The notes under the pieces: model-generated
What the model saw: only the letters and a program-made list of their open reading frames with translations
The model's database searches: none
What the model was told of the DNA's origin: nothing
Part shown: in pieces, positions 7,062-44,330 of the stretch
How positions within the stretch are numbered: position 1 is the stretch's first letter
Layout of the letters: each line of letters begins with the position of its first letter
DNA from: Mesorhizobium hawassense
Lineage (GTDB): Bacteria > Pseudomonadota > Alphaproteobacteria > Rhizobiales > Rhizobiaceae
DNA: 64,000 nucleotides
Assembly (NCBI RefSeq): GCF_003289945.1
Contig: NZ_QMBP01000001.1
Coordinates: 868,001 to 932,000 of the forward strand
Reading direction: 5' to 3'
Program-made: the position numbers and the translations under genes

Positions 7062-7265
7062 CTATAGAGCTTGCCCGCGCTGCAGGCTGACCAGCAGCAC
7101 AAAGCCGACGCTCCTGTTCTTGTGCGCCGGCGCCTCGATCCGGTGGCCAGTGTCGGCGCGCATCATCGGCACCGCCAGCACCGGGGCGGCGAGCAGCATG
7201 AGGATGAGCGTCGCCCGCGGCAGCAGCCTGAGGACATTCGTTGCGGTGGCGGCGATACGGTTCAT
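7062..7265 (-). CDS. Small hypothetical protein with one hydrophobic helix
   Basis: A 67-residue frame starting with ATG at 7265. Residues about 10-35 form a hydrophobic, Leu/Ala-rich helix preceded by arginines, which could be a signal anchor; the C-terminal half is polar (HRIEAPAHKNRSVGF). It lies 66 bases downstream of another small membrane-protein gene in the same orientation, and upstream of amn. Without a homologue I cannot exclude a chance frame. Codon use is similar to neighbouring genes, giving mild support. Confidence 0.4.
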   Translation of the reverse strand: MNRIAATATNVLRLLPRATLILMLLAAPVLAVPMMRADTGHRIEAPAHKNRSVGFVLLVSLQRGQAL

Positions 7266-12362: not shown

Positions 12363-12740
12363 CTATTTCGAAACCGCGATTGCGCAGCCGCCGCTCGCGG
12401 TTTTGACCTTCCACTTTTTCAGGCCGTACTGGCAGTTGCGCAAGGCGATCTCTTCCGCCGCCTTCTGGGTCGGCGCGTTGAGTTTCGCTCCACAGATAAT
12501 GTAGAGATCGACGACGCGAGAATAGAAGGTCGTCGCGTAGGCCGAATGCCCGCTCGCCGCTTTGTAGGCGAGATAGGCTTTGTAGCAGGCTTCCTTTGGA
12601 TCCAGCGACAAATTCGGAGCAAACCGCTTGTCGCCGATCTTGCCGGCCAGCGATTCTGCCGTGGCCGTGCCGGCCGTTGTCGCGACAAGCAGCCCGGCCA
12701 GCAGCGACACGCCTACCAGTTTGGTCCTTGCGAAATTCAT
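12363..12740 (-). CDS. Small secreted four-cysteine protein, paralogue A
   Basis: 125 residues with a signal peptide (1-29, ending TATAES). The mature part shares a pattern with the next two genes: (S/G)LAGK-GDKRF, a first Cys near A-C-Y-K-A-Y, GHSAYATTFYSRVVDLYIICG, LNAPTQKAAEE-A-RNC and GLKKWKV-TASGGCAIAVSK. Four cysteines are conserved across the set and could form two disulfides. The closest general resemblance is to DUF4189-like secreted proteins, but I am not sure of membership. The ATG at 12740 follows a G-rich ribosome site. It lies 49 bases upstream of mccA on the same strand. Function unknown. Confidence 0.75.
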   Translation of the reverse strand: MNFARTKLVGVSLLAGLLVATTAGTATAESLAGKIGDKRFAPNLSLDPKEACYKAYLAYKAASGHSAYATTFYSRVVDLYIICGAKLNAPTQKAAEEIALRNCQYGLKKWKVKTASGGCAIAVSK

Positions 12741-12776
12741 TCCGGTCCCCCCAGGGCGAAAAAAGCGGTCTGATGT

Positions 12777-13157
12777 CTATTTCGATGCCGCGATTGCGCA
12801 GCCGCCGCTCGCCGTGTTGAGCCGCCACTTCTTCAGGCCGCCCTGGCAGTTGCGCATCGCTGCGTCCTCCGCGGCCTTTTGCGATGGTGCGTTGAGCGCT
12901 TTGCCGCAAACGACATAGAGGTCCCTGACGCGCGTATAGAAAGTGGTCGCATAGGCCGAATGCCCGCCCGCCGCGACATAGGCATTGTAGGCAATCCTGC
13001 ATTGGTCCTTGGCATTCATCGCCAACGGCGGCGGAAAGCGCTTGTCGCCGACGCTGCCTGCCAGCGATCCGGCAGCCATGCTGATGCCGGACGCCGACGC
13101 GACCAGCGCCGCCGCCATCATCGCCGCAGCCGCTCGTCTCATGTCTATTGATTTCAT
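12777..13157 (-). CDS. Small secreted four-cysteine protein, paralogue B
   Basis: 126 residues, signal peptide about 1-29 (ISMAAGS), same architecture as its neighbours: LAGSVGDKRFPPPLAMN, GHSAYATTFYTRVRDLYVVCG, LNAPSQKAAEDAAMRNCQGG and TASGGCAIAASK. Identity to paralogue A is high, especially in the last 60 residues, so this is a recent tandem duplication. The start at 13157 follows AAGGGGGGCGGA, a strong ribosome site; a start at 13193 is possible but would add a non-signal extension. Four conserved cysteines. Confidence 0.75.
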   Translation of the reverse strand: MKSIDMRRAAAAMMAAALVASASGISMAAGSLAGSVGDKRFPPPLAMNAKDQCRIAYNAYVAAGGHSAYATTFYTRVRDLYVVCGKALNAPSQKAAEDAAMRNCQGGLKKWRLNTASGGCAIAASK

Positions 13158-22061: not shown

Positions 22062-23213
22062 TTAGAACGAGCGCTGGAAGCGGAGCATGCCGCCGACGCT
22101 GTTCTTCTTGTCGGCATTAGTGAAGTTTACGACGTCGGCGCCCGAAACCCACTCGTCGAACTTGCCGAAGTGATCGTAGTCGACTTCGGCAGTGACCGTG
22201 AAGCCGGGAACGAGGTCGTACGCGACGTTCGCCGCCACGCCGTAGTTCTTGTCCTGATCACCCGACACCTGGAGGTTGAACGAAGTTTTTTCGTTGAACT
22301 TGTAGGTGCCGCCGGCCCAGAACGCCCAGTTGCCGCCCCAGATTTTGTAGAAGCCGCGATCATGTGCGTCGATGGCGTTGGTCGGGTCGTCGAGGTTGTT
22401 GTCGGTGCCGTAGCCGAACATGCCGAACACCGACAGTTCATTGCTGAGGTTGACGTCCACACGGACCTTGCCGGCGACTTCCTCGTAGTTGCTGTCGTAA
22501 GCCACGACACCGCTGATTGCGCCCCAGCCCTGCGTGTACTTCACGCCGCCGACGACATGCGGAACGTAGCTGTCGATGGTGCCGACGACGCCCTCGCCTT
22601 CTTCAAGCGAAACCACGGCGGAGAAGCCGTTGCCGGCGTCGAAGTAGTACTGAACCACGTTGGTGTCGAAGTCGCCATAGGGGACAATCGTGTCGTTGAT
22701 GACGTTGCCGGCATAGCCGATGAACGTATTGAAGGCCGATTCGTCCTTACCGACGCGGAGACCACCGAGCTGGATCCAGGCGAAGTTCAGCGAAACTCCG
22801 CTGTTGCGCGCCGTGTTGTAGTAAACGGCAGCATTCCGGTTGGCGAAGTTGAAGCGGGTCTCGGTGTAGGTCTTCAACGTGCCGAGTTCGGTTTCCTGGC
22901 CGGTCCAGGTCTTCAGGGTGAAGCGGGTGTGCTTCTGGAAGGTGCTGTTTTCGCTGCCGTCCTGGTGGTCGGCGGTCTTGGCGCCGTCGAACGAGCCGAC
23001 ATCCCCGACGCCGATGTCGTAACGGACATAGCCGCCGATGCGCAGGCAGGTCTCGGTGCCGGGGATGTAGAAGTAGCCCGAGCCGTAGACGTCGCAGATC
23101 TTGACGTATTCCGCCGGTTCCGGCTCGGCGACGGTCACAGCGTCGGCGGCGCGAGCACCGGAAACTGCGACGAGGGCCGCAGCTGAGCCGAGAAGAAGGC
23201 TCTTGATGTTCAT
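22062..23213 (-). CDS. Outer-membrane porin, Brucella Omp2 type (minus-strand copy)
   Basis: 383-residue trimeric-porin family protein forming outer-membrane diffusion channels. Signal peptide 1-22 (MNIKSLLLGSAAALVAVSGA, then RAAD). The mature protein starts with the family-typical AVTVAEPEPAEYVKICDVYG and GYFYIPGTETCLRIGGYVRYD, which contains the conserved cysteine pair, and ends GGMLRFQRSF with the terminal phenylalanine needed for outer-membrane assembly. It is a near-duplicate of the gene at 24197-25357 in opposite orientation; they differ mostly in a surface-loop region around residues 270-300 and near the C-terminus. Ribosome site CTGGAGG, 8 bases before the ATG. Confidence 0.95.
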   Translation of the reverse strand: MNIKSLLLGSAAALVAVSGARAADAVTVAEPEPAEYVKICDVYGSGYFYIPGTETCLRIGGYVRYDIGVGDVGSFDGAKTADHQDGSENSTFQKHTRFTLKTWTGQETELGTLKTYTETRFNFANRNAAVYYNTARNSGVSLNFAWIQLGGLRVGKDESAFNTFIGYAGNVINDTIVPYGDFDTNVVQYYFDAGNGFSAVVSLEEGEGVVGTIDSYVPHVVGGVKYTQGWGAISGVVAYDSNYEEVAGKVRVDVNLSNELSVFGMFGYGTDNNLDDPTNAIDAHDRGFYKIWGGNWAFWAGGTYKFNEKTSFNLQVSGDQDKNYGVAANVAYDLVPGFTVTAEVDYDHFGKFDEWVSGADVVNFTNADKKNSVGGMLRFQRSF

Positions 23214-23310
23214 TTTCTGACCTCCAGTCAGAATCGAACGGCAGCGTTGAGGAAAAGAAGGCTAGTTAGGCTGTTTCCTTTCAATTTCAGATGGATAAGT
23301 CCTGAATCAG

Positions 23311-23560
23311 TCAGGAGGGTTCAGTCCGCCAAAACCGTTTGTTGGCGAAGGCCTGCCGGATCCGGTCTTGAAATATTGCTCGAGTTGCCGCGCGTTGGCC
23401 TCGGTTTCGACCCCGATGTAGGCCTTCAAGGTGACAGGCAAATAAGCCTTGGTCGAAGTCACCTGTCCTGATTGATGCGATTCGAAACGACCCGGAGATC
23501 GTTTGTCGATCCGACATAGACATCGCCGTTATGGAGCTGCGGGAAATAGACGTACCACAT
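23311..23560 (-). pseudogene. GIY-YIG nuclease domain gene broken by two single-base deletions
   Basis: The minus strand encodes MWYVYFPQLHNGDVYVGSTN, a GIY-YIG-like start (the WYVYF and YVGSTN halves of the signature). After L-R the frame breaks; restoring one base near 23493 gives RFESHQSGQVTSTKAYLPV and TLKAYIGVETEANARQLEQY, the normal continuation. A second missing base near 23346 must be restored to read RAFANKRFWRTEPS to the stop at 23311-23313. With both repairs the product is 83 residues, a standard short rhizobial GIY-YIG protein. It lies directly downstream of tRNA-Ser on the same strand and between the inverted porins. Two independent lesions argue for a true pseudogene rather than one read error. 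Confidence 0.8.
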
Positions 23561-23656
23561 GGTCCCCCCCACGCTACTTCGTAGCTTCGGGCGACACTCC
23601 CACGCCCAAATGCGGTTCCGGGTGGCCTGCCACCCGAAGCCCGCAGGGGCGTAGGG

Positions 23657-23747
23657 TGGCGGAGAGGATGGGATTCGAACCCACGAGAAGCTTTTGACCT
23701 CTACTCCCTTAGCAGGGGAGCGCCTTCGACCACTCGGCCACCTCTCC
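23657..23747 (-). tRNA. tRNA-Ser (anticodon GCU)
   Basis: On the minus strand, the 5' acceptor arm GGAGAGG (23747-23741) pairs with CCTCTCC near the 3' end, followed by G and an encoded CCA (23659-23657). The anticodon stem-loop CTCCCCTGCTAAGGGAG carries GCT, reading AGC/AGU serine codons. The long variable arm (TAGAGGTC...GCTTCTC region) is typical of class II tRNA-Ser, and GGTTCGAATCC gives the T-loop. 91 bases including CCA. Confidence 0.96.
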
Positions 23748-24196
23748 GTCGCGCCGGTGGATAAAGAAAAGCGTCGGCACAATCAACAAGCCGGCGCCAT
23801 AATCAGCGAAAAATCGGCAGGCGGGCACGGTCCCGCCGTTCCAGATGGCGATTCTGCGGCATCTGCCTGGCGCGCGACTCGCCGACATGCCGCAATTCGG
23901 TCCCGCCATTGCCGGATTCGGCCCGATTCCGGCGCTGCAAGGCCTCGATGGTTAACGAGAGCTTTCGGAGTGAGGCCAAATCGTGTCATTTGTGCAACAA
24001 CCCCCGGGGATAGCGTCCGGACAGCTGTCCCGCCGATACGATCGTGGTTGAACGGCGCCGGCTCATGGGTAAAGGTCATGTTCGAAGGAGCGGCGCGGTG
24101 CGCATCTTTTTCGGTAGTGGGGATGGGGCAGGGAACGCTGTCCTTCAGCAAAAAATACCCAGACCCGTTTTTTAACTTTTGACTGGAGGTCAGAAA
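23748..24196. other. Gene-free upstream region of tRNA-Ser and the plus-strand porin
   Basis: 449 bases between the 5' end of the tRNA (minus) and the porin ATG (plus). I see no credible coding frame. It must hold both promoters. The last 17 bases before the porin ATG (TGACTGGAGGTCAGAAA) are identical to the leader of the inverted porin copy; further upstream the two leaders differ. Confidence 0.5.
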
Positions 24197-25357
24197 ATGA
24201 ACATCAAGAGCCTTCTTCTCGGCTCAGCTGCGGCCCTGATCGCAGTTTCCGGTGCTCGCGCCGCCGACGCTGTGACCGTCGCCGAGCCGGAACCGGCGGA
24301 ATACGTCAAGATCTGCGACGTCTACGGCTCGGGCTACTTCTACATCCCCGGCACCGAGACCTGCCTGCGCATCGGCGGCTATGTCCGTTACGACATCGGC
24401 GTCGGTGACATCGGCTCGTTCGACGGCGCGGCGACCGCCGACCATGAGGATTTCTCCCGGCAGGAAACCTTCCAGAAGCACGCCCGCTTCACGCTGAAGA
24501 CCTGGACCGGCCAGGAAACCGAACTCGGCACGTTGAAGACCTACACCGAGACCCGCTTCAACTTCGCCAACCGGAATGCTGCCGTCCCCTACAACACGGC
24601 GCGCAACAGCGGTGTTTCGCTGAACTTCGCCTGGATCCAGCTCGGTGGCCTTCGCGTCGGTAAGGACGAATCGGCCTTCAACACGTTCATCGGCTACGCC
24701 GGCAACGTCATCCAGGATACGCTGGTTCCCTACGGCGATTTCGACACCAACGTCGTCCAGTACTACTTCGACGCCGGCAACGGCTTCTCGGCGGTCGTCT
24801 CGCTCGAAGAAGGCTCGGGCGTCAAGGGCACCATTGACAGCTACGTTCCGCATGTCGTCGGCGGCGTGAAGTACACGCAGGGCTGGGGCGCCATCACTGG
24901 CGTCGTTGCTTATGACAGCAACTACGAGGAAGTGGCCGGTAAGGTCCGTGTGGACTTCAACGTCAACGACGCGATCTCGCTGTTCGGCATGGTCGGCTAT
25001 GGCAGCGACGACAACCTGTCGGATCCGACCTGGGCAATCCCTGGCACCAGCGGCATCCCAGGGGCGCAGGGCCGCGGCTTCTTCAAGCAGTGGGGCGGCA
25101 ACTGGGCCTGGTGGGTCGGCGGCACCTACAAGTTCAACGAGAAGACCTCGTTCAACGCTCAGGTGTCGGGTGACGACGACAAGAACTACGCCGTTGCGGC
25201 AAACATCGCTTACGACGTCGTTCCCGGCTTCACCGTCACGGCCGAAGTTGACTGGGCTCACGACGGCAAGTTTAACCAGTTTGGTAACTTCAACTGGACT
25301 GGCGCCGACAAGAAGAACAGCGTCGGCGGCCTCCTCCGTTTCCAGCGCTCCTTCTAA
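24197..25357 (+). CDS. Outer-membrane porin, Brucella Omp2 type (plus-strand copy)
   Basis: 386-residue porin, the inverted partner of the gene at 22062-23213. The signal peptide and roughly the first 230 residues are nearly identical between copies. This copy carries a few extra residues in a loop near 275-290 (PGTSGIPGAQGRG in place of AIDAHDRG) and different residues before the C-terminal ADKKNSVGGLLRFQRSF. The terminal Phe and the CDVYG...CLRIGG cysteines are intact. ATG at 24197 after CTGGAGG; the frame upstream to 24179 lacks a better start. It ends with a strong terminator, so it is monocistronic. Expected product: an abundant general-diffusion channel. Confidence 0.95.
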   Translation: MNIKSLLLGSAAALIAVSGARAADAVTVAEPEPAEYVKICDVYGSGYFYIPGTETCLRIGGYVRYDIGVGDIGSFDGAATADHEDFSRQETFQKHARFTLKTWTGQETELGTLKTYTETRFNFANRNAAVPYNTARNSGVSLNFAWIQLGGLRVGKDESAFNTFIGYAGNVIQDTLVPYGDFDTNVVQYYFDAGNGFSAVVSLEEGSGVKGTIDSYVPHVVGGVKYTQGWGAITGVVAYDSNYEEVAGKVRVDFNVNDAISLFGMVGYGSDDNLSDPTWAIPGTSGIPGAQGRGFFKQWGGNWAWWVGGTYKFNEKTSFNAQVSGDDDKNYAVAANIAYDVVPGFTVTAEVDWAHDGKFNQFGNFNWTGADKKNSVGGLLRFQRSF

Positions 25358-27722: not shown

Positions 27723-27870
27723 CCTTCTCCCCTTGTGGGAGAAGGTGGCCTCGCGAAGCGAGGTCGGATGAGGGGTGTTCCAGGGAACGCCAACGCCCCA
27801 CTTCGCTGGAACACCCCTCATCCGTCTCGGCGCTGCGCGCCGATCCACCTTCACCCACAAGGGGAGAAGG
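27723..27870. repeat. 148-base palindromic repeat element R3
   Basis: Two arms of about 62 bases are nearly perfect inverted repeats: both begin CCTTCTCCCCTTGTGGG and end GGATGAGGGGTGTTCCAG when read 5'-3' on their own strands. Each arm contains its own small hairpin, so a cruciform or clover structure can form. It fills the gap between the hydrolase and the lytic transglycosylase and could act as a transcriptional boundary. Confidence 0.8.
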
Positions 27871-29919: not shown

Positions 29920-30047
29920 TTTACAATCCTAGCACATCGTCAGCAGGCGCGGGCACTCAAAACCCGATGCAAAGCCTAAAGGTAGGTCGTGAAGGGCTCG
30001 TAAACAAAAGGTTATCGAGGCCGTTCGAATTGCGCTTGCTGGCGTCC

Positions 30048-30204
30048 CGATTCTGAAATTCGCATGACCTTGATATCGGGCGCGGCGCGAATTTCAGAAT
30101 CGCAAGGACACCAGCCAACTGTCGAATCCAGTGTCGTTTTGGTTTTCGATGTTCGCTCCGAGCCTGATATCGACGCCTGGCGAACATCGAAAACCACGAC
30201 ACTG
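30048..30204. repeat. Pair of adjacent long hairpins (R5)
   Basis: Hairpin 1 pairs 30048-30063 (CGATTCTGAAATTCGC) perfectly with 30087-30102. Hairpin 2 pairs 30129-30156 with 30180-30204 (CAGTGTCG...GATGTTCGC) with few mismatches. Both loops contain the same GATATCG word, suggesting two units of one palindromic family. Confidence 0.75.
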
Positions 30205-30306
30205 GCACTATTGCGATCCTTGCCGCTGAACCATGTCGAGACTATGGTGCGCGGCTTCGCTTTCGGTTAGAAGGCGCGCAAACAAACCGACCAATGAAAC
30301 ACCAAT

Positions 30307-30426
30307 GCATGTCGCCCAAAAGTGGGAACCGGTTTTGGGATAGCGACATACATCAACCAACAAAGTGCATGTCGCCCAAAAGTGGGAACCGGTTTTGGGA
30401 CAACGACATGCATCAACCAACAAAGT
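30307..30426 (+). repeat. Tandem pair of 60-base R2 repeats
   Basis: Two direct copies (30307-30366 and 30367-30426) that differ at only a few bases. Each has inverted ends, TGCATGTCG and CGACATGCA, and an inner CCCAAAA/TTTTGGG hairpin. A third, diverged copy is at 44270-44330 just after era. Confidence 0.85.
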
Positions 30427-30445
30427 TCCAAGGAGTTTGGAAGAC

Positions 30446-31327
30446 ATGCTGAGAGGCTCGCTGACCGCGCTCGTCACACCGTTCGAAAAGAGCGGGCGTT
30501 TCGACGAGAAAGCCTTTCGCGCTTTCGTCGAATGGCAGATCGCGGAGGGCACCAAGGGTCTCGTGCCGGTCGGCACCACAGGCGAGTCGCCGACGCTCTC
30601 GCATGACGAGCACCGTCAGGTCGTCAAGGTCTGCATCGAGGTTGCCAGGGGCCGTGTTCCGGTCGTCGCGGGCGCCGGTTCCAACAACACCGAGGAAGCG
30701 GTCGGGCTGGTGCAATATGCCGAAAAGGCAGGCGCCGATGCTGCCCTTGTCGTCACGCCTTACTACAACAAGCCCACGCAGCGCGGTCTCTATGAGCATT
30801 TCGCCGCCGTCGCCAAGGCGACCAAGCTGCCGATCATCATCTACAACATCCCGCCGCGTTCGGTGATCGATATGAGCCCGGAAACGATGGGCAGGCTGCG
30901 CCACGACTTCAAGAATATCGCCGGCGTCAAGGACGCGACCGGCAAGGTCGAGCGCGTCTCCTATCAGCGCATGACCTGCGGCAAGGATTTCATCCAGCTT
31001 TCCGGCGAGGACGCGTCTGCTCTAGGCTTCAATGCCCATGGCGGCATCGGCTGCATTTCGGTGACGTCGAACGTGGCGCCGCGGCTCTGCGCCGAGTTCC
31101 AGGAGGCGACGCTCTCCGGCGACAGCGCCAAGGCGCTCGACCTGCAGGATCGGCTTCTGCCGCTGCATGAGGCGATCTTCATGGAGCCCGGCGTTTCCGG
31201 GTCGAAATATGCGTTGTCGAAGTTGGGCAGAATTGAAAACGTGGTGCGCTCGCCGCTGGTCACGGTCGAGACCTCGACTGCGCAAAAGATCGATGCGGCG
31301 CTTAAGCACGCCGGCCTGATCAATTAG
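30446..31327 (+). CDS. dapA: 4-Hydroxy-tetrahydrodipicolinate synthase
   Basis: Condenses pyruvate with aspartate semialdehyde, the first committed step to diaminopimelate and lysine. 293 residues, standard. Active-site residues are visible: Thr44-Thr45 in [11 protein letters not shown], Tyr133 in [10 protein letters not shown] and the Schiff-base Lys162 in GVKDATGK. The ATG at 30446 opens the family N-terminus [13 protein letters not shown] after AAGGAG; a longer frame begins inside the R2 repeat and is not credible. It heads the conserved dapA-smpB pair of Rhizobiales, though here a 145-base palindrome separates them. Confidence 0.96.
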
Positions 31328-31472
31328 CGAGCCCGTTTGGAAACTCTACTCCTGCGGCCATCTGAAGGCGCCACCTGCGCTTCCGGTGCTCACGTACCAT
31401 ATGTACGCTCCGCTCCGGTTCTCGGTGACACCTTCACCTGACTCGCAGGAGCGAGTTTCGAAACGGACTCTA
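31328..31472. repeat. 145-base long palindrome R4, copy 1
   Basis: Fills the dapA-smpB gap. The outer arms (GAGCCCGTTTGGAAACTC against GAGTTTCGAAACGGACTC) and middle arms pair almost throughout; the centre reads TGCGCTTCCGGTGCTCAC, a GTACCATATGTAC loop, then GCTCCGCTCCGGTTCTCG. The same centre, with different arms, occurs at 36413-36557. Confidence 0.85.
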
Positions 31473-31478
31473 GTCGTT

Positions 31479-31958
31479 ATGAATCAAGTCAAGAAAGCCG
31501 ACCCCAACAACAAGACCGTTGCCGAAAACCGCAAGGCGCGCTTTTCCTACGAGGTGCTCGACACGATCGAGACCGGCTTGGTGCTGACCGGCACCGAGGT
31601 CAAGTCGCTGCGCCAGGGCCAGGCCAACATCCAGGAATCTTACGCTTCGGCTGAAGGCGGCGAGATCTGGCTGATTAATTCTTATCTGCCGGAATATCTG
31701 CAGGCCAACCGCTTCAACCACGAGCCGCGCCGGCGCCGCAAATTGCTGGTCTCGAAGCGCGAGATGGCCAAGCTCTCGCAGAGCGTCGAGCGCGAAGGCA
31801 TGACGCTGGTGCCGCTCAAGATCTATTTCAACGACCGCGGTCGCGCCAAGCTGCTGCTCGCGGTCGCTCGCGGCAAGAAGCTGCATGACAAGCGTGAGAC
31901 CGAAAAACAGCGCGACTGGTCGCGTGAGAAGGGCCGGCTGCTGAAGGAGCGCGGCTAA
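31479..31958 (+). CDS. smpB: SsrA (tmRNA)-binding protein
   Basis: Binds tmRNA and rescues stalled ribosomes by trans-translation. 159 residues. Landmarks: [40 protein letters not shown], the [13 protein letters not shown] patch, [23 protein letters not shown] and the C-terminal [15 protein letters not shown] tail that enters the mRNA channel. The ATG at 31479 matches the family N-terminus; the in-frame extension upstream lies in the palindrome. The ribosome site is weak. Confidence 0.96.
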
Positions 31959-32012
31959 AGCAATTCCAGGAAAAGTGCGTAGCGGTTTTCCGTTCGGAAT
32001 TGTGTCAAAACA
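31959..32012 (+). repeat. Intergenic repeat family R1, copy c (short)
   Basis: Begins right after the smpB stop: CAATTCCAGGAAAAGTGCG, AGCGGTTTTCCGTTCGGAATTG, then CAAAACAAA. It matches the first half of copy b at 10252-10350 and lacks the second hairpin. Confidence 0.7.
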
Positions 32013-32111
32013 AAAGAGTTTCTCTGGGACCGGTCGCATCCGGCCGCCTGAAAAAAGCCACCCGCCGGTTCTCTGGTCCGGCGCAATCTCACTTTCCGAC
32101 GGGGGACGGTC

Positions 32112-32822
32112 TTGGGGAAGCGGGTTGTTTTCTGTGGCCTTGCCGGCGTGGTTGTCGCCTGTGCCATCGCGGCGGGCGCCTATTTCTGGTTCCGCGGCTT
32201 TTCCCCTGACCGCGCCGAGTTCCCGATCCGGGGCATCGACGTCTCGCACCATCAGGGAACGATCGACTGGCGGCGCGTCGCGGCCGACGATGTCGCCTTC
32301 GCCATCATCAAGGCAACCGAGGGCGGCACCCATGTCGATACTGAGTTCGCCACCAACCTGCGCGAAGCCCGGGCAGCCGGCCTGGCGGTCGGCGCCTATC
32401 ACTTCTTCACCTTCTGCCGCCCGGGCGCCGATCAGGCGAGGAACTTCATTGCGGTGGTGCCGCGCGGCGAACCGCTCTTGCCGCCGGTGGTGGACATCGA
32501 GTTCGGCGGCAATTGCCCGCAGCGTCCGTCGCCGCAGCAGCTGAACGCCGAGCTTGCCGCTTTCCTCGGCCCGGTCGAGACGGCGTTCGGCAAGCAGGCG
32601 ATTTTCTATCTGACCGACGAGGCGGCCGAGGCCTATTCCGGCGAGATCATCGCGCGGCGGCGCTGGCTGCGCTCATTGGCGATCAGGCCGAGCGGGAACG
32701 GCTGGATCTACTGGCAGTATCACAATATGGGCCGCGTCGACGGCATCAAAGGCGATGTCGATCTCAACGTGCTGAGGGGCAGCCGCCAGACGCTGGCCGG
32801 GTTGTTCGCCCTAACGCCGTGA
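32112..32822 (+). CDS. GH25-family lysozyme, membrane-anchored or secreted
   Basis: A glycoside hydrolase family 25 muramidase. 236 residues: a hydrophobic segment at 5-27 (signal or anchor), then the catalytic barrel. GIDVSHHQGTIDWRRV contains the conserved D-V-S-x-(H/Y)-Q; FAIIKATEGGTHVD and YHFFTF follow, and PPVVDIEFGG carries the D-x-E catalytic pair. YWQYHNMGRVDGIKGDVDLN is the usual GH25 end. The start is a TTG at 32112 with GGGGGAC five bases upstream; no ATG fits the signal region. It is downstream of smpB, probably independent. Role: cell-wall remodelling or an exported lytic enzyme. Confidence 0.88.
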   Translation: MGKRVVFCGLAGVVVACAIAAGAYFWFRGFSPDRAEFPIRGIDVSHHQGTIDWRRVAADDVAFAIIKATEGGTHVDTEFATNLREARAAGLAVGAYHFFTFCRPGADQARNFIAVVPRGEPLLPPVVDIEFGGNCPQRPSPQQLNAELAAFLGPVETAFGKQAIFYLTDEAAEAYSGEIIARRRWLRSLAIRPSGNGWIYWQYHNMGRVDGIKGDVDLNVLRGSRQTLAGLFALTP

Positions 32823-32882
32823 GTGCTCGGCGGCAGCCTCGAACCTGTTTCTGCGGCTTTTTGCGTATATCGCTGAAAAGCC

Positions 32883-33812
32883 TCACGATCCGCGTGACGC
32901 CGGTACATTCAGGCTTGCGCTGGTACCAGGTCTCCCGATCGCCGAGATGGCCATTCCCGCTGCCATGATCGCGATGGCCGCGAACTGGATCGTCATCGGT
33001 GTTTCGCCGAGCACCGCCATGCCGACGAACACCGTGGCGATCGGTATGCAGGGCAGGAACAGAGACGCCGCCTGCGGCCCCAGTTGCCGGACGATGTAAG
33101 TGTAAAGGAACATGGCCGCCGCGCCGGCCAGGATCCCCTGGATCACGATCTGGCTGACGATCTCCGTAGCGGCTGCGGCATGGATATGGCTTGGCGCGAA
33201 GAGATAGAGAGCCGGCAGGGGCAGGCAGGACAGGAACACCACCGCGGCCGTCGCCGTGACAGGATCGGCACGCCAGCGCCTGACAAGAACGGCATAGGTC
33301 GAAAACATCAATCCCGATCCGATGAACAGCATATCGCCGAAGAGGACGCCGCCGGTGCCGTCGCGCGCCGGCGCAATGAACAGCGACAGGCCGGCGATAA
33401 TCGCCAGGACACCGATGGTCCGTTGCCGTGAAGGGCTGTCATTGAAGACGATGCGTGACAGCAGGAACGAAAAGAAGACGATCGACGCTGGACAAAGCGC
33501 CGCCGCGTGGGCAGCAGGCGCATGGGTCAGGCCCCAGTTGATGATCAGCGGGTAAGGCAAGCCTGCCAGCGCCGCCAATATCAAGGCGCGTTGCCAGCCT
33601 AGCGCCCTCATGCTCGCCAAGCCGCCGCGCCAGACGATCGGCACAAAGACTGCGCCTGCGCCGCCAAAGCGCAATGCGGCCAGGTCCGTCGCCGTCAGAT
33701 GCTCCCTGAGGCTGAAGCGCGCGGCGACGAATTGCACGGCGTAGATGCCGATCATGGTCAGGCCGGCAACAATGGCCAGTCTCGTGTTTCCTGCGTCCCC
33801 TGCGTCTGCCAC
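32883..33812 (-). CDS. EamA/DMT-superfamily transporter
   Basis: 309 residues with ten predicted transmembrane helices in two five-helix EamA halves (first half about 10-145, second about 155-295). Conserved features are LAALRFGGAG in helix 2, LTHAPAAHAALC-like helix 4, LGETPMTIQFAAIAIMAAGM near the end. Members export amino acids, purines or other metabolites. The GTG at 33812 is used as start; an ATG 20 codons later would truncate helix 1. Divergent from an Lrp-type regulator, the classic arrangement for an amino-acid exporter and its sensor. Confidence 0.88.
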   Translation of the reverse strand: MADAGDAGNTRLAIVAGLTMIGIYAVQFVAARFSLREHLTATDLAALRFGGAGAVFVPIVWRGGLASMRALGWQRALILAALAGLPYPLIINWGLTHAPAAHAAALCPASIVFFSFLLSRIVFNDSPSRQRTIGVLAIIAGLSLFIAPARDGTGGVLFGDMLFIGSGLMFSTYAVLVRRWRADPVTATAAVVFLSCLPLPALYLFAPSHIHAAAATEIVSQIVIQGILAGAAAMFLYTYIVRQLGPQAASLFLPCIPIATVFVGMAVLGETPMTIQFAAIAIMAAGMAISAIGRPGTSASLNVPASRGS

Positions 33813-33955
33813 GACTTGCCACCCATATGTCGCCGAAGATGAAGACCGTCTCCACCACTGCGGCGAAAGCGCAGGCTATTGTTCAGGCTTCTGCGTTGAA
33901 ATACGCTCCTTTCAGAAAATGATAGTGGAATTCACACCAAAAAGGCAGTTTTAGA

Positions 33956-34429
33956 GTGAATCCAGAAGCAAGCGATCTCGACAGCGTCGACCGTACTCTC
34001 CTTCGGCTGCTGCAGGAGGATGGGCGCCGCACCACGCTTGATCTGGCGGCGCGTGTCGGCCTGTCGCCGACCGGCGCCAGCCTGCGGGTGAAGCGGCTGT
34101 TTCGGGAAGGCTACATCACAGCGGTCAGGGCCGTGCTCAATCCGGCAAAGATCGGGCGCGGCACGCTCGTCTTCATCGAAGTACGTCTCGATCACACGGC
34201 GCCTCATATTTTCGAACGCTTCGCCGAAGCGGTGACCAAGGCGCCCGAGGTTCTCGAATGCCACATGGTCGTCGGCGGTTTCGACTATCTGGTGAAGGCG
34301 CGCATTTCGGAAATGGCCGCTTATCAGCATTTCCTGACCCGGGTCATCCTGCCGTTGCCGGGAGTGAAAGAGACGCACACTTACGCCTCGATCGGCGAGG
34401 TGAAGCCGGATGCCCTGCTGCCGGTCTGA
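33956..34429 (+). CDS. Lrp/AsnC-family regulator
   Basis: 157 residues. N-terminal winged helix (about 8-60: LDSVDRTLLRLLQEDGRRTT, LAARVGLSPTGASLRVKRL) and C-terminal RAM ligand domain (about 70-150: FIEVRLDH, VLECHMVVGGFDYLVKARI, LPGVKETHTYASIGEVK). The start is a GTG at 33956. Divergent from the EamA transporter with 143 bases between, so it probably senses an amino acid and controls that exporter; a GTGGAATTCAC near-palindrome lies in the gap around 33922-33932. Confidence 0.9.
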   Translation: MNPEASDLDSVDRTLLRLLQEDGRRTTLDLAARVGLSPTGASLRVKRLFREGYITAVRAVLNPAKIGRGTLVFIEVRLDHTAPHIFERFAEAVTKAPEVLECHMVVGGFDYLVKARISEMAAYQHFLTRVILPLPGVKETHTYASIGEVKPDALLPV

Positions 34430-34458
34430 ACTGGCTTGGGACTTCAGGGCACTTGAAT

Positions 34459-35121
34459 CTAGGTCTTCAGGAACGCAGCAATCTCCTTGAACACATTGAC
34501 GAACATCTCTTCGGTCAACACGCCCGTATTGGTGTTGTAGCGCGAGCAGTGATAGCTGGAAAACAGCGCGGCGCCACCGGCCTCCTGCCGTCCGCCATGA
34601 CGGAACGGAATGGCCGCGACGCGCTCGCCCAGCGCCCGCACCGTCGACTGGTGCGCGATCGAGCCCAGCGTCAGGATGGCGCGCAAATTGGCGAAGCGCG
34701 CGATGGTCGGCTTCAGAAAAGTCCGGCAGGTGGCGATCTCGGCGCCGACCGGCTTGTTCTCTGGCGGCACGCAGCGCACCGCGTTGGTGATGGCCGTGCC
34801 GACGAGCTGCAGTCCGTCATCCGGCCTTGCCTTGAACTCGCCGCGGGCAAGGCCATGCGCGATCATCGTGCCGTAGAGCAGGTCGCCGGCATAGTCGCCG
34901 GTGAACGGGCGCCCCGTGCGGTTGGCGCCGCGCAGACCGGGTGCCAGCCCGACGATCAGCAGCTTGACCGAATCCTCGCCTTCCGGCGGCAGGAAAGTCG
35001 GCACTGGCGCGTTGAACCAGCCTGGTTCACGCTCGCGCCAGCCGGCGATGAAACCGTGCAGTCGCGGGCACAGCGGGCAGTCACGGCCGGGTTCGGGGGA
35101 GGGCGCGGCGGTCAAGGCCAC
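34459..35121 (-). CDS. Uracil-DNA glycosylase, family 5 (UdgB type)
   Basis: 220 residues. The motif A segment IVGLAPGLRGANRTGRPFTG has the A-P-G-x-x-G-x-N-R-T-G-R-x-F-T-G-D layout typical of UdgB, which lacks the catalytic acid of families 1 and 4 and acts broadly on uracil, hypoxanthine and other lesions. Cysteines in DCPLCPRLH and VRCVPPE fit the iron-sulfur cluster. Motif B reads SSYHCSRYNTNTGVLTEEM, with C-S-R where many family-5 enzymes have P-S-x. The start is GTG at 35121, six bases after the NYN gene stop, so the two are an operon. Also annotated generically as UDG superfamily. Confidence 0.88.
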   Translation of the reverse strand: MALTAAPSPEPGRDCPLCPRLHGFIAGWREREPGWFNAPVPTFLPPEGEDSVKLLIVGLAPGLRGANRTGRPFTGDYAGDLLYGTMIAHGLARGEFKARPDDGLQLVGTAITNAVRCVPPENKPVGAEIATCRTFLKPTIARFANLRAILTLGSIAHQSTVRALGERVAAIPFRHGGRQEAGGAALFSSYHCSRYNTNTGVLTEEMFVNVFKEIAAFLKT

Positions 35122-35127
35122 CGTCCG

Positions 35128-35709
35128 TCAATAATCGTCCTCGTCGACTTCGGCCGGTTCCGGCCGGCGCGCCGGCCGTTCCGACGGGTCACGGCCGACT
35201 TCGCTCTTCAGCGTCATCAGGTCGATGAAATGATCGGCCTGGCGGCGCAGGTCGTCCGAGATCATCGGCGGCTGCGAAGCCATGGTCGAGATGATCGACA
35301 CCTTGCGGCCGCGCCGCTGCAGTGCCTCGACCAGCGTGCGGAAGTCACCGTCGCCGGAGAAGATGACATAGTGGTCGACGACGTCGGCAAGCTCAAGCGC
35401 ATCGACGGTGAGCTCGATATCCATATTGCCCTTGATCTTGCGGCGTCCGGTCGAGTCGGTGAATTCCTTGGCGGGCTTGGTCACCACCTTGAAGCCATTA
35501 TAGTCGAGCCAGTCGATCAGTGGCCGGATCGACGAATATTCCTGATCCTCGACGAGCGCGGTGTAATAATAGGCGCGCAAGAGATAGCCGCGCTTCTGGA
35601 AACTCGACAGAAGCTTGCGGTAGTCGATGTCGAAGCCCAGCGCGCGCGACGTGGCGTAGAGATTGGCGCCGTCGATGAAAAGAGCGATCTTTTCACGGGG
35701 ATCGAACAT
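35128..35709 (-). CDS. NYN-domain (LabA/DUF88) putative ribonuclease
   Basis: 193 residues of a PIN-like NYN fold, expected to cut RNA. The acidic active-site residues are in ALFIDGANLY, KGNMDIELTVDALELA and VIFSGDGDFRTLVEAL; SIISTMASQPPMISDDLRRQAD follows. The tail from about 172 is Pro/Arg/acidic and disordered. The ATG at 35709 is clear. Upstream of udgB in the same orientation. It sits next to rpoZ-rel, as in many Rhizobiales. Substrate unknown. Confidence 0.88.
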   Translation of the reverse strand: MFDPREKIALFIDGANLYATSRALGFDIDYRKLLSSFQKRGYLLRAYYYTALVEDQEYSSIRPLIDWLDYNGFKVVTKPAKEFTDSTGRRKIKGNMDIELTVDALELADVVDHYVIFSGDGDFRTLVEALQRRGRKVSIISTMASQPPMISDDLRRQADHFIDLMTLKSEVGRDPSERPARRPEPAEVDEDDY

Positions 35710-36012
35710 CGAAAAACATTCCTTTCGAAAATTTCTGTCGTCTAAAAGCGTCTGACGAATAGGTCCGACAAATGGTCCTTGCTGCCGTCACATCCGAGAT
35801 AACGCGCAATTTGTGGATATCCAAGGGCACGGCCCGCATTGCAAGCAATTGTGATCGCGACTATGTGAGCAGTCTGATGGCGTGGCGCGATGATGAGCCG
35901 GGCAACGGCCCACAAAGCTGACGCCGCCGCCATAAAGCTTGTATTTCGGCCGCGCCCGCGTTATGGAGCGCGCCAGCTTTCCATCAAATCCATCGCATGA
36001 AAGGGGCAGTCC
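35710..36012. other. Divergent promoter region between the NYN gene and rpoZ
   Basis: 303 bases without a credible gene. A possible rpoZ promoter is TTGTAT around 35939 with TTATGG 16 bases later. GAAAGGGGC just before 36013 supplies the rpoZ ribosome site. Confidence 0.4.
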
Positions 36013-36414
36013 ATGGCCCGCGTAACCGTTGAAGATTGCATCGACAAGGTCGACAACCGATTTGAACTCGTGCTGCTCGCTGGCCACCGCGCCCGCCAGA
36101 TCAGCCAGGGCGCGCAGATCACCGTCCCGCGCGACAATGACAAGAACCCGGTCATCGCGCTGCGCGAGATCGCCGACGAGACGCTGTCTCCCGACGACCT
36201 CAAGGAAGATCTGATCCACTCGCTGCAGAAGCATGTCGAGGTCGACGAGCCGGAAGCCGAGGGCGAGGCGATCGCCGATCAGACCGGCGCGACCGCCGTT
36301 GCCGCCGACACCGACGACGCCGAGGAGAACGTCACTTTCGACCGCATGAGCGAGGAAGATCTGCTCGCCGGCATCGAAGGTCTGGTACCGCCGGAAAAGA
36401 GCGACGATTACTAA
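36013..36414 (+). CDS. rpoZ: RNA polymerase omega subunit
   Basis: Assembly and stability subunit of RNA polymerase that also forms part of a ppGpp-binding site in Gram-negatives. 133 residues: the conserved core is [51 protein letters not shown]; the C-terminal half is an acidic extension (about 75-133) as in other Rhizobiales. It lies just upstream of rel, the classic rpoZ-spoT order, but separated by a 145-base palindrome and about 120 further bases. Confidence 0.96.
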
Positions 36415-36557
36415 GAGCTTTTGATAATTCTACGCAGCCGGTCGCCTGGCGCGGTTTTCTGCGCTTCCGGTGCTCACGGACCTGAACGTCCGCTCCGCTC
36501 CGGTTCTCGAAAACCACACCATACGACTCGGCTGAGCGAATTCTAAAAAGCTCTTAT
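36413..36557. repeat. 145-base long palindrome R4, copy 2
   Basis: Starts at the rpoZ stop. Outer arms AAGAGCTTTT and AAAAGCTCTT and middle arms (AATTCTACGCAGCCGG against CGGCTGAGCGAATT) pair; the centre repeats TGCGCTTCCGGTGCTCAC and GCTCCGCTCCGGTTCTCG of copy 1 around a different GGACCTGAACGTCC loop. Confidence 0.85.
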
Positions 36558-36676
36558 CGGAACTTGCCTGGATCAAGCATCGGGCACTTCCGTCTCGTAA
36601 GTTTCGTGGCTATCTATGGGATGCGTCGCACCTTGGTGCGGCGCATCAATCATTTCAGCACCGCGAGATTCCGCCC

Positions 36677-38908
36677 ATGATGCGTCAGTATGAGCTTGTC
36701 GAGCGCGTCCAGCGCTACAAGCCTGACGTCAACGAGGCGCTGCTCAACAAGGCCTACGTCTATGCCATGCAGAAGCATGGCCACCAGAAGCGCGCCTCGG
36801 GCGATCCCTATTTCTCGCATCCGCTCGAAGTCGCCGCCATCCTCACCGACATGCACATGGACGAGGCGACCATCGCCGTCGCCCTGCTGCATGACACGAT
36901 CGAGGACACGACCGCGACGCGCGCCGAGATCGACGAATTGTTCGGTCCGGAAATGGGCAAGCTGGTCGAGGGCCTGACCAAGCTGAAAAAACTCGATCTC
37001 GTCTCCAAGAAGGCGGAGCAGGCGGAGAACCTGCGCAAGCTTCTGCTCGCGATCTCCGAGGATATTCGCGTCCTTCTGGTCAAGCTCGCCGACCGCCTGC
37101 ACAACATGCGCACGCTCGACCATATGCCCGAGTCCAAGCGCCTGCGCATCGCCGAGGAGACGATGGACATCTACGCGCCTTTGGCCGGGCGCATGGGCAT
37201 GCAAGGCATGCGCGAGGAACTGGAGGAAATCGCCTTCCGCTACATCAATCCGGAGGCCTATCGCGCCGTTACCGCAAGGCTTGCCGAGATTTTCGAGCGC
37301 AACAAGGGCGTCCTGCAGGAGATCGAGACGGCGCTGTCGGGCCTGTTCGAAAAGCATTCCATCAAGGCGAGCGTGAAGAGCCGGCAGAAGAAGCCATGGT
37401 CGGTGTTCCGCAAGATGGAGGCCAAGGCGCTCTCCTTCGAGCAGCTCTCCGACATTTTCGGCTTCCGCGTCGTTGTCGATTCCGTCGACGACTGCTATCG
37501 CGCGCTCGGCGCCATCCACACAACCTGGTCGATGGTGCCCGGCCGGTTCAAGGACTACATCTCGACGCCGAAGCAGAACGACTATCGTTCCATCCACACC
37601 ACCATCGTCGGCCCGTCGCGCCAGCGCGTCGAATTGCAGATCCGCACCAGGGAGATGAACAAGATCGCCGAATACGGCGTCGCCGCGCATTCGATCTACA
37701 AGGACAGCGGCGGTAAGATGAACGGCGCCGGCCACGCGATCTCCAAGGAGACCAACGCCTATGCCTGGCTGCGGCGCACCATCGAGCAGCTGGCCGAAGG
37801 CGACAATCCGGAGGATTTCCTCGAGAACACCAAGCTGGAGCTGTTCCAGGACCAGGTGTTCTGCTTCACGCCCAAGGGCATGCTGATCGCGCTGCCGCGC
37901 GGCGCCACGCCGATCGACTTCGCCTATGCCGTCCACACCGATGTCGGCGACACCTGCGTCGGCGCCAAGGTCAATGGCCGCATCATGCCGCTGATGACGG
38001 AATTGAAGAACGGCGACGAGGTCGAGATCATCCGCTCCAAGGCGCAGGTGCCGCCCGCCGCCTGGGAATCGGTCGTGGTCACCGGCAAGGCGCGCGCCGC
38101 CATCCGCCGCGCCACCAAGAATGCGATCCGCAAGCAATATTCCGGCCTCGGCGCTCGCATCCTCGAACGCGCTTTTGAGCGCGCCGGCAAGACCTTCACC
38201 AAGGAAAGCCTGAAGCCGGTTCTGCACCGGCTGGCGCGCAAGGACATCGAGGACGTGCTGGCTTCGGTCGGTCGCGGCGAGCTGAGCTCGACCGATGTCA
38301 TGAAAGCGGTCTTCCCCGACTACAAGGACGAGCGCGTCACCGTCGCGGCGCCCAAGCAGCGCGAGGAGGGTTGGTCGAAGATCCGCAACGCCGCCGGCAT
38401 GCTGTTCCAGATGCCCGGCACGCGCGCCGCGCGCAAGGACAAGAACCAGCCGCGCGACGGCGCCGTGCCGATCCGTGGCGTGCGCGGTGACCTGCCGGTG
38501 CGCTTTGCGCCGGAAGGCGCCGTGCCCGGCGATCGCATCGTCGGCATCATCCAGCCGGGAACCGGCATCACCATCTATCCGATCCAGTCGCCGGCGCTGC
38601 AGGCCTTCGACGACCAGCCCGAGCGCTGGATCGACGTGCGTTGGGACATCGACGAACGCACCAAGGAGCGGTTTCCGGCGCGCATCTCGGTCACCGCCAT
38701 CAACGCGCCGGGGTCGCTGGCCGACATCGCCCAGGTCGTCGCGTCCAACGACGCCAACATCCACACGCTGTCGATGATACGCACCGCGCCCGATTTCACC
38801 GAGATGCTGATCGACCTCGAGGTCTGGGATCTGAAGCATCTCAACCGGCTGTTGTCGCAGCTCAAGGACAATTCGAGCGTCAGCGATGCGCGGCGTGTGA
38901 ATGGATGA
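36677..38908 (+). CDS. rel: Bifunctional (p)ppGpp synthetase/hydrolase
   Basis: Makes and degrades the stringent-response alarmones; the only long RelA/SpoT homologue visible here. 743 residues: HD hydrolase domain about 30-180 (HPLEVAAILTDM, LLHDTIEDT with His72-Asp73), synthetase domain about 230-350 (FGFRVVVDSVDDCYRALG, GRFKDYISTPKQNDYRSIHT), TGS about 395-455, and a C-terminal ACT domain about 665-740. The RFKD in the synthetase is the R-x-K-D form of bifunctional enzymes, and the HD residues are intact, so both activities are expected. Start ATG at 36677. Also called spoT or relA in related genomes. Confidence 0.96.
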   Translation: MMRQYELVERVQRYKPDVNEALLNKAYVYAMQKHGHQKRASGDPYFSHPLEVAAILTDMHMDEATIAVALLHDTIEDTTATRAEIDELFGPEMGKLVEGLTKLKKLDLVSKKAEQAENLRKLLLAISEDIRVLLVKLADRLHNMRTLDHMPESKRLRIAEETMDIYAPLAGRMGMQGMREELEEIAFRYINPEAYRAVTARLAEIFERNKGVLQEIETALSGLFEKHSIKASVKSRQKKPWSVFRKMEAKALSFEQLSDIFGFRVVVDSVDDCYRALGAIHTTWSMVPGRFKDYISTPKQNDYRSIHTTIVGPSRQRVELQIRTREMNKIAEYGVAAHSIYKDSGGKMNGAGHAISKETNAYAWLRRTIEQLAEGDNPEDFLENTKLELFQDQVFCFTPKGMLIALPRGATPIDFAYAVHTDVGDTCVGAKVNGRIMPLMTELKNGDEVEIIRSKAQVPPAAWESVVVTGKARAAIRRATKNAIRKQYSGLGARILERAFERAGKTFTKESLKPVLHRLARKDIEDVLASVGRGELSSTDVMKAVFPDYKDERVTVAAPKQREEGWSKIRNAAGMLFQMPGTRAARKDKNQPRDGAVPIRGVRGDLPVRFAPEGAVPGDRIVGIIQPGTGITIYPIQSPALQAFDDQPERWIDVRWDIDERTKERFPARISVTAINAPGSLADIAQVVASNDANIHTLSMIRTAPDFTEMLIDLEVWDLKHLNRLLSQLKDNSSVSDARRVNG

Positions 38909-44269: not shown

Positions 44270-44330
44270 GCATGTCGCCCAAAAAATGTGAAGCGGTTTT
44301 GGGATGACGACATGCAAATTGATGCTTGTC
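44270..44330 (+). repeat. R2 repeat, diverged single copy
   Basis: Starts right after the era stop: GATGCATGTCGCCCAAAA, AGCGGTTTTGGGATGACGAC, ATGC. It keeps the TGCATGTCG/CGACATGC ends and the CCCAAAA/TTTTGGG stem of the tandem pair at 30307-30426. Confidence 0.75.

Follow-up and report, generated by a model that had tools for sequence, protein, structure and literature searches.

Two hairpins flush with stop codons

In the window, a 64,000-nucleotide stretch of the Mesorhizobium hawassense genome (assembly GCF_003289945.1, contig NZ_QMBP01000001.1, positions 868,001 to 932,000), two long palindromes follow directly on protein-coding genes. Element 1 (31328-31472) lies between a dapA-like gene, whose TAG stop occupies 31325-31327, and smpB, whose ATG is at 31479; element 2 (36413-36557) lies 3' of rpoZ, whose TAA stop occupies 36412-36414. 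The features at the two sites are as follows.

30365 to 31327, plus strand: dapA-like gene (listed ORF, true start may be later; name taken from the original prediction)
31325 to 31375, plus strand: element 1 left arm, B subfamily, starting at the stop codon
31376 to 31424, plus strand: element 1 conserved core, TGCGCTTCCGGTGCTCAC-tip-CGCTCCGCTCCGGTTCTCG, with 27 exact copies in its own genome
31425 to 31472, plus strand: element 1 right arm, complement of the left arm
31479 to 31958, plus strand: smpB, 6 bases after element 1, with a match in 99 of 99 genus genomes
36013 to 36414, plus strand: rpoZ, its stop TAA (36412-36414) forming the 5' base of element 2, with a match in 97 of 99 genus genomes
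36412 to 36459, plus strand: element 2 left arm, B subfamily
36460 to 36509, plus strand: element 2 conserved core
36510 to 36557, plus strand: element 2 right arm
31325 to 31472, minus strand: element 1 as the strand probably folded under selection, antisense to dapA
36412 to 36557, minus strand: element 2 as the strand probably folded under selection, antisense to rpoZ

In both elements the stop codon of the preceding gene (TAG of dapA, TAA of rpoZ) forms the 5' base of the stem. Both elements had been predicted from the letters alone as 145-base palindromes with a shared centre and different, still self-complementary arms, and most of that description is borne out. The common centre lies at 31376-31424 in element 1 and 36460-36509 in element 2, the tips (GTACCATATGTAC and GGACCTGAACGTCC, respectively) match those originally quoted, and the arms of each element are complementary, so that each folds into one long hairpin. 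Elements 1 and 2 fold at -69.6 and -65.5 kcal/mol on the plus strand and at -91.8 and -81.1 kcal/mol on the minus strand; the z-scores, in the same order, are -6.93, -7.56, -10.12 and -9.24, and 0 of 200 shuffles fold as well for each of the four strands. Both palindromes are confirmed, and chance does not come near to explaining them. The claim that their arms have little sequence in common stood only in part: aligned without gaps, the two 145-mers agree at 43% of positions, a value that is low partly through a one-base offset, but 31403-31457 and 36488-36542, a stretch that takes in part of the core, are 73% identical. When more family copies are compared, both elements belong to the same arm subfamily, B.

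A dispersed family with a patchy distribution

Further copies of the centre were collected, as the original prediction had proposed, and a repeat family was found in the genome itself and throughout much of the genus. The long core occurs in 27 exact copies in the 7.33-Mb genome and a shorter core in 39 distinct copies; the core is present in 92 of 99 genus genomes, at up to 49 copies per genome, while a reversed-pattern control gave 0 matches in the own genome and the 99 genus genomes. The unit is a single hairpin of about 145 nt, and outside the tip and core the arms fall into two main subfamilies, A and B. The copies were collected through the core, the conservation of which is partly by construction, but that of arms, stops and polarity is not.

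A core common to all Alphaproteobacteria was considered and ruled out, because the exact long core occurs in 2 of 385 genomes of the class, one of them the present genome, and a tip-core pattern in 20 of 297 genomes of the order, which represent 5 of its 122 genera. The distribution is patchy, with as many as 16 copies in a single genome of another genus. Among the matches listed are Mesorhizobium, Pleomorphomonas, Sphingosinicella, Asticcacaulis, Bosea, Devosia and a Nitrospirae MAG. A similarity search with an A-type copy hit 33 plasmid records (Sphingobium 14, Shinella 6) and no phage record.

The stem of the tip covaries (GTAC/GTAC, GGAC/GTCC, GAAC/GTTC, GGGC/GCCC), its second pair being T-A in 202, G-C in 55 and A-T in 26 among 292 copies; the flanks of this stem are invariant owing to the search pattern itself.

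Several copies carry further palindromes. A second palindrome, CCTTCGCC..CCGAAG...GGCGTAGGCCGG, lies inside the core between CTCCGG and TTCTCG, with an apparent CCGG duplication, at several unrelated loci (L309, L314, L282, L475, L428 and L436, the last near 7218 on the minus strand). At the dapA-smpB locus, L061, L121, L122, L124, L142 and L156 carry yet another double palindrome (GCGCATGGCCC..GAAAGC... plus AGAGCG...CGCTCT), nested where the core ends. Right arms with an additional segment, ...GTTTGGTCGC.TCGCGC.CGTCTTCGACTCC..., recur at L005, L204, L264, L265 and L267, so that insert-bearing sub-lineages seem to spread. In several copies (L192, L218, L486, L498, L501, L517, L528 and L531), mostly from the second high-copy genus, another palindrome, CCGAAAAGTC..CAACTTTTCGG.C, stands in place of the outer left arm. 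Pairs of copies in the same orientation also lie about 1 kb apart (G000:C7:97086/98290, C12:24221/25167 and C57:103589/104851), where they would bracket possible gene cassettes; by impression rather than computation, such pairs look more numerous than expected for 39 copies.

Anchoring at stop codons

Of 231 distinct copies, 187 have an in-frame, coding-like stop at -62 to -36 relative to the core pattern, and in 148 of these 187 it lies at -55 to -51; the core runs in the sense orientation of the upstream gene. All three stop codons are used (TAG 80, TGA 69, TAA 38), and the remaining 44 copies have no stop by this criterion. In the own genome 33 of 39 copies are anchored, and the upstream proteins of 18 of its copies resemble ordinary genes when judged by eye. 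As a control, an earlier set examined over the same -62 to -36 interval had a left stop in 152 of 186 copies, whereas a right stop belonging to a convergent gene was seen in 28 of 181, 11 times at -54. Where the arms are shortened, the stop is closer to the core and still at the stem base, and the position of the stop is unchanged in orthologous alleles that lack the element. In 25 of 134 anchorable copies the right end exactly complements the triplet of the stop, versus 10.1 ± 2.4 when stops were permuted (maximum of 18 in 2000 permutations).

The minus strand is the better hairpin

Of 190 copies, 184 fold more stably as the minus strand than as the plus strand (mean -79.3 versus -67.6), whereas among upstream genic pieces used as a control 106 of 186 do so. 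The arm mismatches were counted in a strand-neutral alignment of the 190 copies, in which the left arm was set against the reverse complement of the right arm and all transitions were scored alike; on the plus strand they comprise 668 A.C versus 255 G.U. A plus-strand A.C is a G.T or G.U pair on the minus strand. When each locus is represented by a single copy, the 801 cells of the outer arms divide into 635 Watson-Crick, 92 A.C, 20 G.U and 54 other, with a nominal p of 3e-12 for A.C against G.U. These two counts are free of any bias from minus-strand folds, but the pair lists for the A-type copies and the orthologous loci came from such folds and may favour minus-strand wobble pairs: in 103 of 188 copies (A-type, ungapped), counting only pairs with a Watson-Crick majority, there are 371 compensated cells, 256 A.C, 68 G.U and 261 other, and at orthologous loci A.C outnumbers G.U by 32 to 11 distinct states (nominal p 0.002). 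All p values are nominal, as the copies share descent and neither cells nor pairs are independent.

The polarity extends to B-type copies (60 of 60) and to the copies from the scan of the order, mostly from the second high-copy genus with some from Mesorhizobium (59 of 64). Among the 149 of 190 copies whose neighbourhood could be classed, it hardly differs between convergent (74 of 75) and tandem (69 of 74) arrangements. The sequence flanking A-type copies on the right shows no skew between strands (AT 0.014, GC 0.023), and thus no gross mutational bias is indicated. Three observations lean the other way or limit the result. Mismatches in the tip stem favour plus-strand G.U over A.C (13 versus 8), transversion mismatches show no clear sign of having been purged (261 cells versus 256 A.C in A-type copies), and 21 other hairpins behind genes lean in the same direction as the family (A.C 8, G.U 2), a set too small to serve as a control, so that the polarity may not be peculiar to this family.

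Arms change in concert, by transitions within loci

Two processes had been offered for the differing but complementary arms: compensatory change that keeps the stem, or copying of one arm onto the other. The proposed test for covariation showed that the arms do covary. Among 103 A-type copies, arms pair better with their own partner than with swapped arms over the outer 10 pairs (7.38 versus 4.81 ± 0.15) and the inner 33 pairs (29.17 versus 27.06 ± 0.09), and the same is seen over the outer 9 pairs with one copy per locus at 89 loci (7.13 versus 4.89 ± 0.12). Within five orthologous loci, the distinct non-majority states are A.C 32, other 20, compensated 13 and G.U 11; these come from 38 of 48 core-bearing alleles, after removal of alleles that had a nested insert, were truncated at one end or contained a gap of at least 200 bases, and count only pairs with a Watson-Crick majority. 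The view that compensatory change keeps the stem is supported.

All 13 compensated states within loci are transitions, while 20 transversion mismatch states persist. Compensation by transitions only, together with the excess of A.C (32) over G.U (11), matches the passage of each change through a minus-strand wobble pair and does not match copying of one arm onto the other, and re-templating is not needed to account for the arms. Across the A-type family, however, transversions make up 26 of 53 compensated pair states, given which copying may have occurred at some past step.

The original prediction allowed that arms identical between copies, or stems decaying without compensation, would make both processes superfluous. 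The picture is mixed and does not overturn it: from copy to copy the A-type inner arms are much alike and the outer arms differ, both stay paired, and some alleles have lost the centre.

At dapA-smpB the core is present in 19 of 98 loci and most others have a 28-base gap; at rpoZ it is present in 4 of 102, with 1 further locus from which the core is deleted and 7 with a short outer-arm hairpin only. At ftsK, prfB and rpiR (30 loci each) there are 9, 7 and 9 core-bearing alleles, respectively, and ftsK and prfB also have short alleles without a core. One allele without the element, in G062, consists of the two outer half-stems joined exactly (TGAGAGGCG-CGCCTCA). Filled and empty sites compared at three loci (rpoZ, prfB and G000 C12) show at most 2 duplicated bases. 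The element-free alleles of G062, prfB and rpoZ fit both insertion into a pre-existing small palindrome and an excision scar.

At rpiR, unrelated palindromes occupy the slot right after the same stop codon. In the rpiR orthologues L368, L375-L377, L379, L380, L385-L387, L389-L393 and L396 of other genomes, the occupant is a different palindrome family of the form CCTTCTCCC...GGGAGAAGG.

Resident outer arms and probably exchanged inner modules

The two parts of the arm have separate histories. Among 120 anchored A-type copies from 89 loci, with the outer nine bases per arm compared, outer-arm divergence between loci is 0.44-0.51 at any inner divergence, versus 0.14-0.24 within the same locus (70 orthologue pairs, in small same-locus groups); even the 46 pairs from different loci whose inner divergence is below 3% have outer arms 0.44 divergent. 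Between orthologues, outer divergence tracks upstream coding divergence (rho 0.49, p 2e-5), with values of 0.08, 0.19, 0.31 and 0.36 in successive classes of upstream identity (12, 40, 16 and 2 pairs), whereas inner divergence shows no correlation with it (rho 0.16, p 0.2). The nearest inner relative lies at another locus for 17 of 45 copies and the nearest outer relative for 12 of 45. The simplest reading is that the outer arms are old residents drifting under pairing, and that inner modules are exchanged between loci. Such a mosaic would account for a common centre and differing arms in the window pair, although the measurements come from A-type copies and carry over to the two B-type copies of the window by inference.

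Outer arms of different loci share an RRRYRYRYY pattern, and their deviations from consensus are mainly transitions (left 212 versus 87, right 155 versus 51). Copying of the target flank into the other arm at insertion was considered because the outer arms are locus-specific; it is weakened by the purine/pyrimidine consensus that the outer arms share across loci and by their divergence with the locus.

Relationship to known elements

The attC sites of integrons are imperfect palindromes of similar length that stand after the stop codon of a gene in one orientation, and the bottom (antisense) strand is the one that folds; their end boxes are RYYYAAC and GTTRRRY. The family resembles them in lying at gene 3' ends in one orientation (187 of 231 copies; 33 of 39 in the own genome) and in the preferential folding of the antisense strand (184 of 190). 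Unlike attC, it has its conserved part near the tip and its variable part at the base, and RYYYAAC/GTTRRRY boxes occur in 0 of 190 copies in either strand sense, as they do in 0 control windows. No integron integrase scored above the TIGR02249 cut-off in the 99 genus genomes, with up to 20 candidates per genome scored and the halves of proteins listed apart; other tyrosine recombinases match below the cut-off. The likeness to attC is one of geometry only.

Palindromic and extragenic like the REP/RAYT repeats, including the GTAG/CGTC families, the family differs in its length of about 145 bases, since REP units are given as 20-40 bp; GTAG REP termini are reported often to supply the stop codon TAG (PMC3733652). 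The RAYT/Y1 transposase (PF01797) is present in 17 of 99 genomes and not detectable in 82, including this one with its 39 copies. Mobilisation by a RAYT/IS200 enzyme or an integron was rejected on these grounds: no Y1 transposase here, no integrase above the cut-off and no attC boxes. With regard to MITE features, the ends are complementary but variable between loci, A-type ends sharing a purine/pyrimidine consensus.

CIR repeats of Caulobacter (Chen and Shapiro 2003), associated with CcrM, are described as intergenic inverted repeats of more than 100 bases with GANTC sites, built of two arms and a linker with GANTC at the loop (PMC2229807, PMC10969869). By that description, the present family is likewise alphaproteobacterial, intergenic, longer than 100 bases and composed of inverted repeats with GANTC sites, but it is a single long hairpin with GANTC within the right arm. 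GANTC occurs 1.09 times per element versus 0.12 expected, with at least one site in 141 of 190 copies, mainly at two fixed though not invariant places (75 and 86 of 190 copies). Among 103 A-type copies the right-arm site reads GACTC in 45 and GGCTC in 47, nearly equal shares, and a CcrM-site repeat was rejected as the whole explanation because of this alternation.

The RIME and AB/C motifs of Sinorhizobium (Osteras 1995 and others; PMC2573895) resemble the family in being rhizobial, intergenic and present in dozens of copies. The family could be identical with a RIME or CIR subtype. Br-REP1 and Br-REP2 of Bradyrhizobium are Rhizobiales repeats in 3'-UTRs (PMC5082802) and therefore similar in host order and in position at gene 3' ends; their printed consensus sequences lack this core when compared by eye.

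An intrinsic terminator was rejected, since there is no T-tract at the element end and no excess of predicted terminators over shuffles (6 versus 5.6 in 6 kb), one of the 6 lying within the left arm of element 2. A known RNA family was likewise rejected, as no Rfam 15 covariance model matched over the elements: across window 30000-38000 at E up to 1 there were 4 hits, none overlapping an element, and at 20 loci the only hits at gathering score, a 6S and a tRNA, lay outside the elements. Covariation supporting structure is present in the family. No description of the core was found in the open-access literature searched; a list of Thalassospira small RNAs prints a core-related string in plus orientation (PMC6413936).

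Proposed mechanism and alternatives

The best explanation, to which a probability of roughly 0.55 is assigned, is that these are dispersed, non-coding hairpin repeats of about 145 bases, mobile or once mobile and set flush against stop codons, whose working form would be the folded minus strand and whose arms drift while staying paired as the centre is held or exchanged. The hairpin sits against the stop of the upstream gene with its core in sense orientation. Its folded minus strand, antisense to that gene, would be recognised through the core by a putative factor, and the arms of each locus would drift separately through wobble intermediates under selection for pairing only. The centre would be held both by sequence selection and by exchange between copies, through gene conversion or replacement. 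The arms of the two window copies would then differ because each locus drifted on its own under pairing-only selection. The family, its stop anchoring, polarity, compensation and mosaic structure are observed; that selection acts on the folded minus strand in place is deduced from them. Counting against this explanation, tandem gene pairs leave the minus strand without a gene known to transcribe it.

The folded strand could be RNA or single-stranded DNA. An RNA role is somewhat more natural given the tolerance of G.U-type pairs, while a role of a DNA hairpin in mobility naturally fits the dispersal and the gene-end position. Both may apply, and the odds of the main explanation and its alternatives accordingly overlap.

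Possible, though distinctly less probable than the main explanation, is that transcription of the minus strand turns the hairpin into a structured antisense or 3'-end RNA, its core a putative protein-binding site, which would act as a barrier, terminator or stabiliser that shields the upstream gene end from opposing transcription. Minus-strand wobble tolerance with covariation, a convergent neighbour called in 101 of 181 copies and the stem base flush with the stop codon are all in keeping with such an RNA, and the Thalassospira small-RNA reads carry a core-related string, though in plus orientation (PMC6413936). Polarity, however, is about equal behind tandem and convergent genes (69 of 74 and 74 of 75), and this, the missing T-tract, the absence of a terminator excess (6 versus 5.6) and the lack of an Rfam match argue against it.

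A little less likely again is a purely selfish single-strand hairpin, comparable to attC or to single-strand transposons, in which structure matters only during transposition and copies are dead afterwards. The patchy distribution, element-free alleles, single orientation at gene ends and conserved core are what such an element would leave, but compensation and polarity go on within orthologous loci, the outer arms diverge with the locus and yet stay paired, and neither of the two enzyme families tested offers a candidate (Y1 transposase in 17 of 99 genomes and not in this one, integron integrase in 0 of 99).

Arm-to-arm re-templating, by which template switching or hairpin mismatch repair copies one arm onto the other and pairing needs no selection, appears improbable. 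It would explain the 26 transversions among 53 A-type compensated states, the exact join of outer half-stems in the G062 allele and the loss of inner parts in several alleles; it sits poorly with compensation within loci by transitions alone (13 of 13) while 20 transversion mismatch states persist, with A.C being kept over G.U, and with right flanks of A-type copies that show no strand composition skew. An ordinary sense-strand 3'-UTR hairpin, a terminator or protector of the mRNA end, is very unlikely despite its place directly after the stop codon, its sense orientation and a plus strand that also folds well, as that strand folds less stably than the minus strand in 184 of 190 copies, carries the A.C mismatches and ends without a T-tract.

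Bacterial intergenic palindromes are commonly taken as symmetric, interchangeable repeats or as terminators. This family shows a measurable strand polarity, a fixed relation to the stop codon and a mosaic history, which make it directly testable whether such palindromes act and on which strand, and the testing ground is a genus that can be cultured and of which many genomes hold dozens of copies. More tentatively, and with the balance of probability against it, these may be antisense-strand hairpins at stop codons, each a mosaic of a locus-resident outer stem drifting by wobble and a fixed-core inner module swapped between loci. Should the minus-strand form prove to be a real RNA or single-stranded DNA to which a protein binds, it would represent a novel type of element at gene ends, comparable to attC without an integron.

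Other repeats in the window

An inverted repeat of the CCTTCTCCCCTTGTGGGAGAAGG type lies at 27723-27870 of the window. Upstream of dapA, at 30306-30425, are two 60-base tandem copies that are 95% identical, with a further relative at 44279, and positions 30355-30455 have a weak Rfam similarity, under the gathering score, to the Brucella sRNA CI27. A tandem duplication at 12363-13073 has a spacing of 414 bases and pieces 72-81% identical. At 22062-25357, a long inverted repeat surrounds about 0.9 kb, with arm pieces of 573, 274, 217 and 66 bases that are 82-96% complementary.
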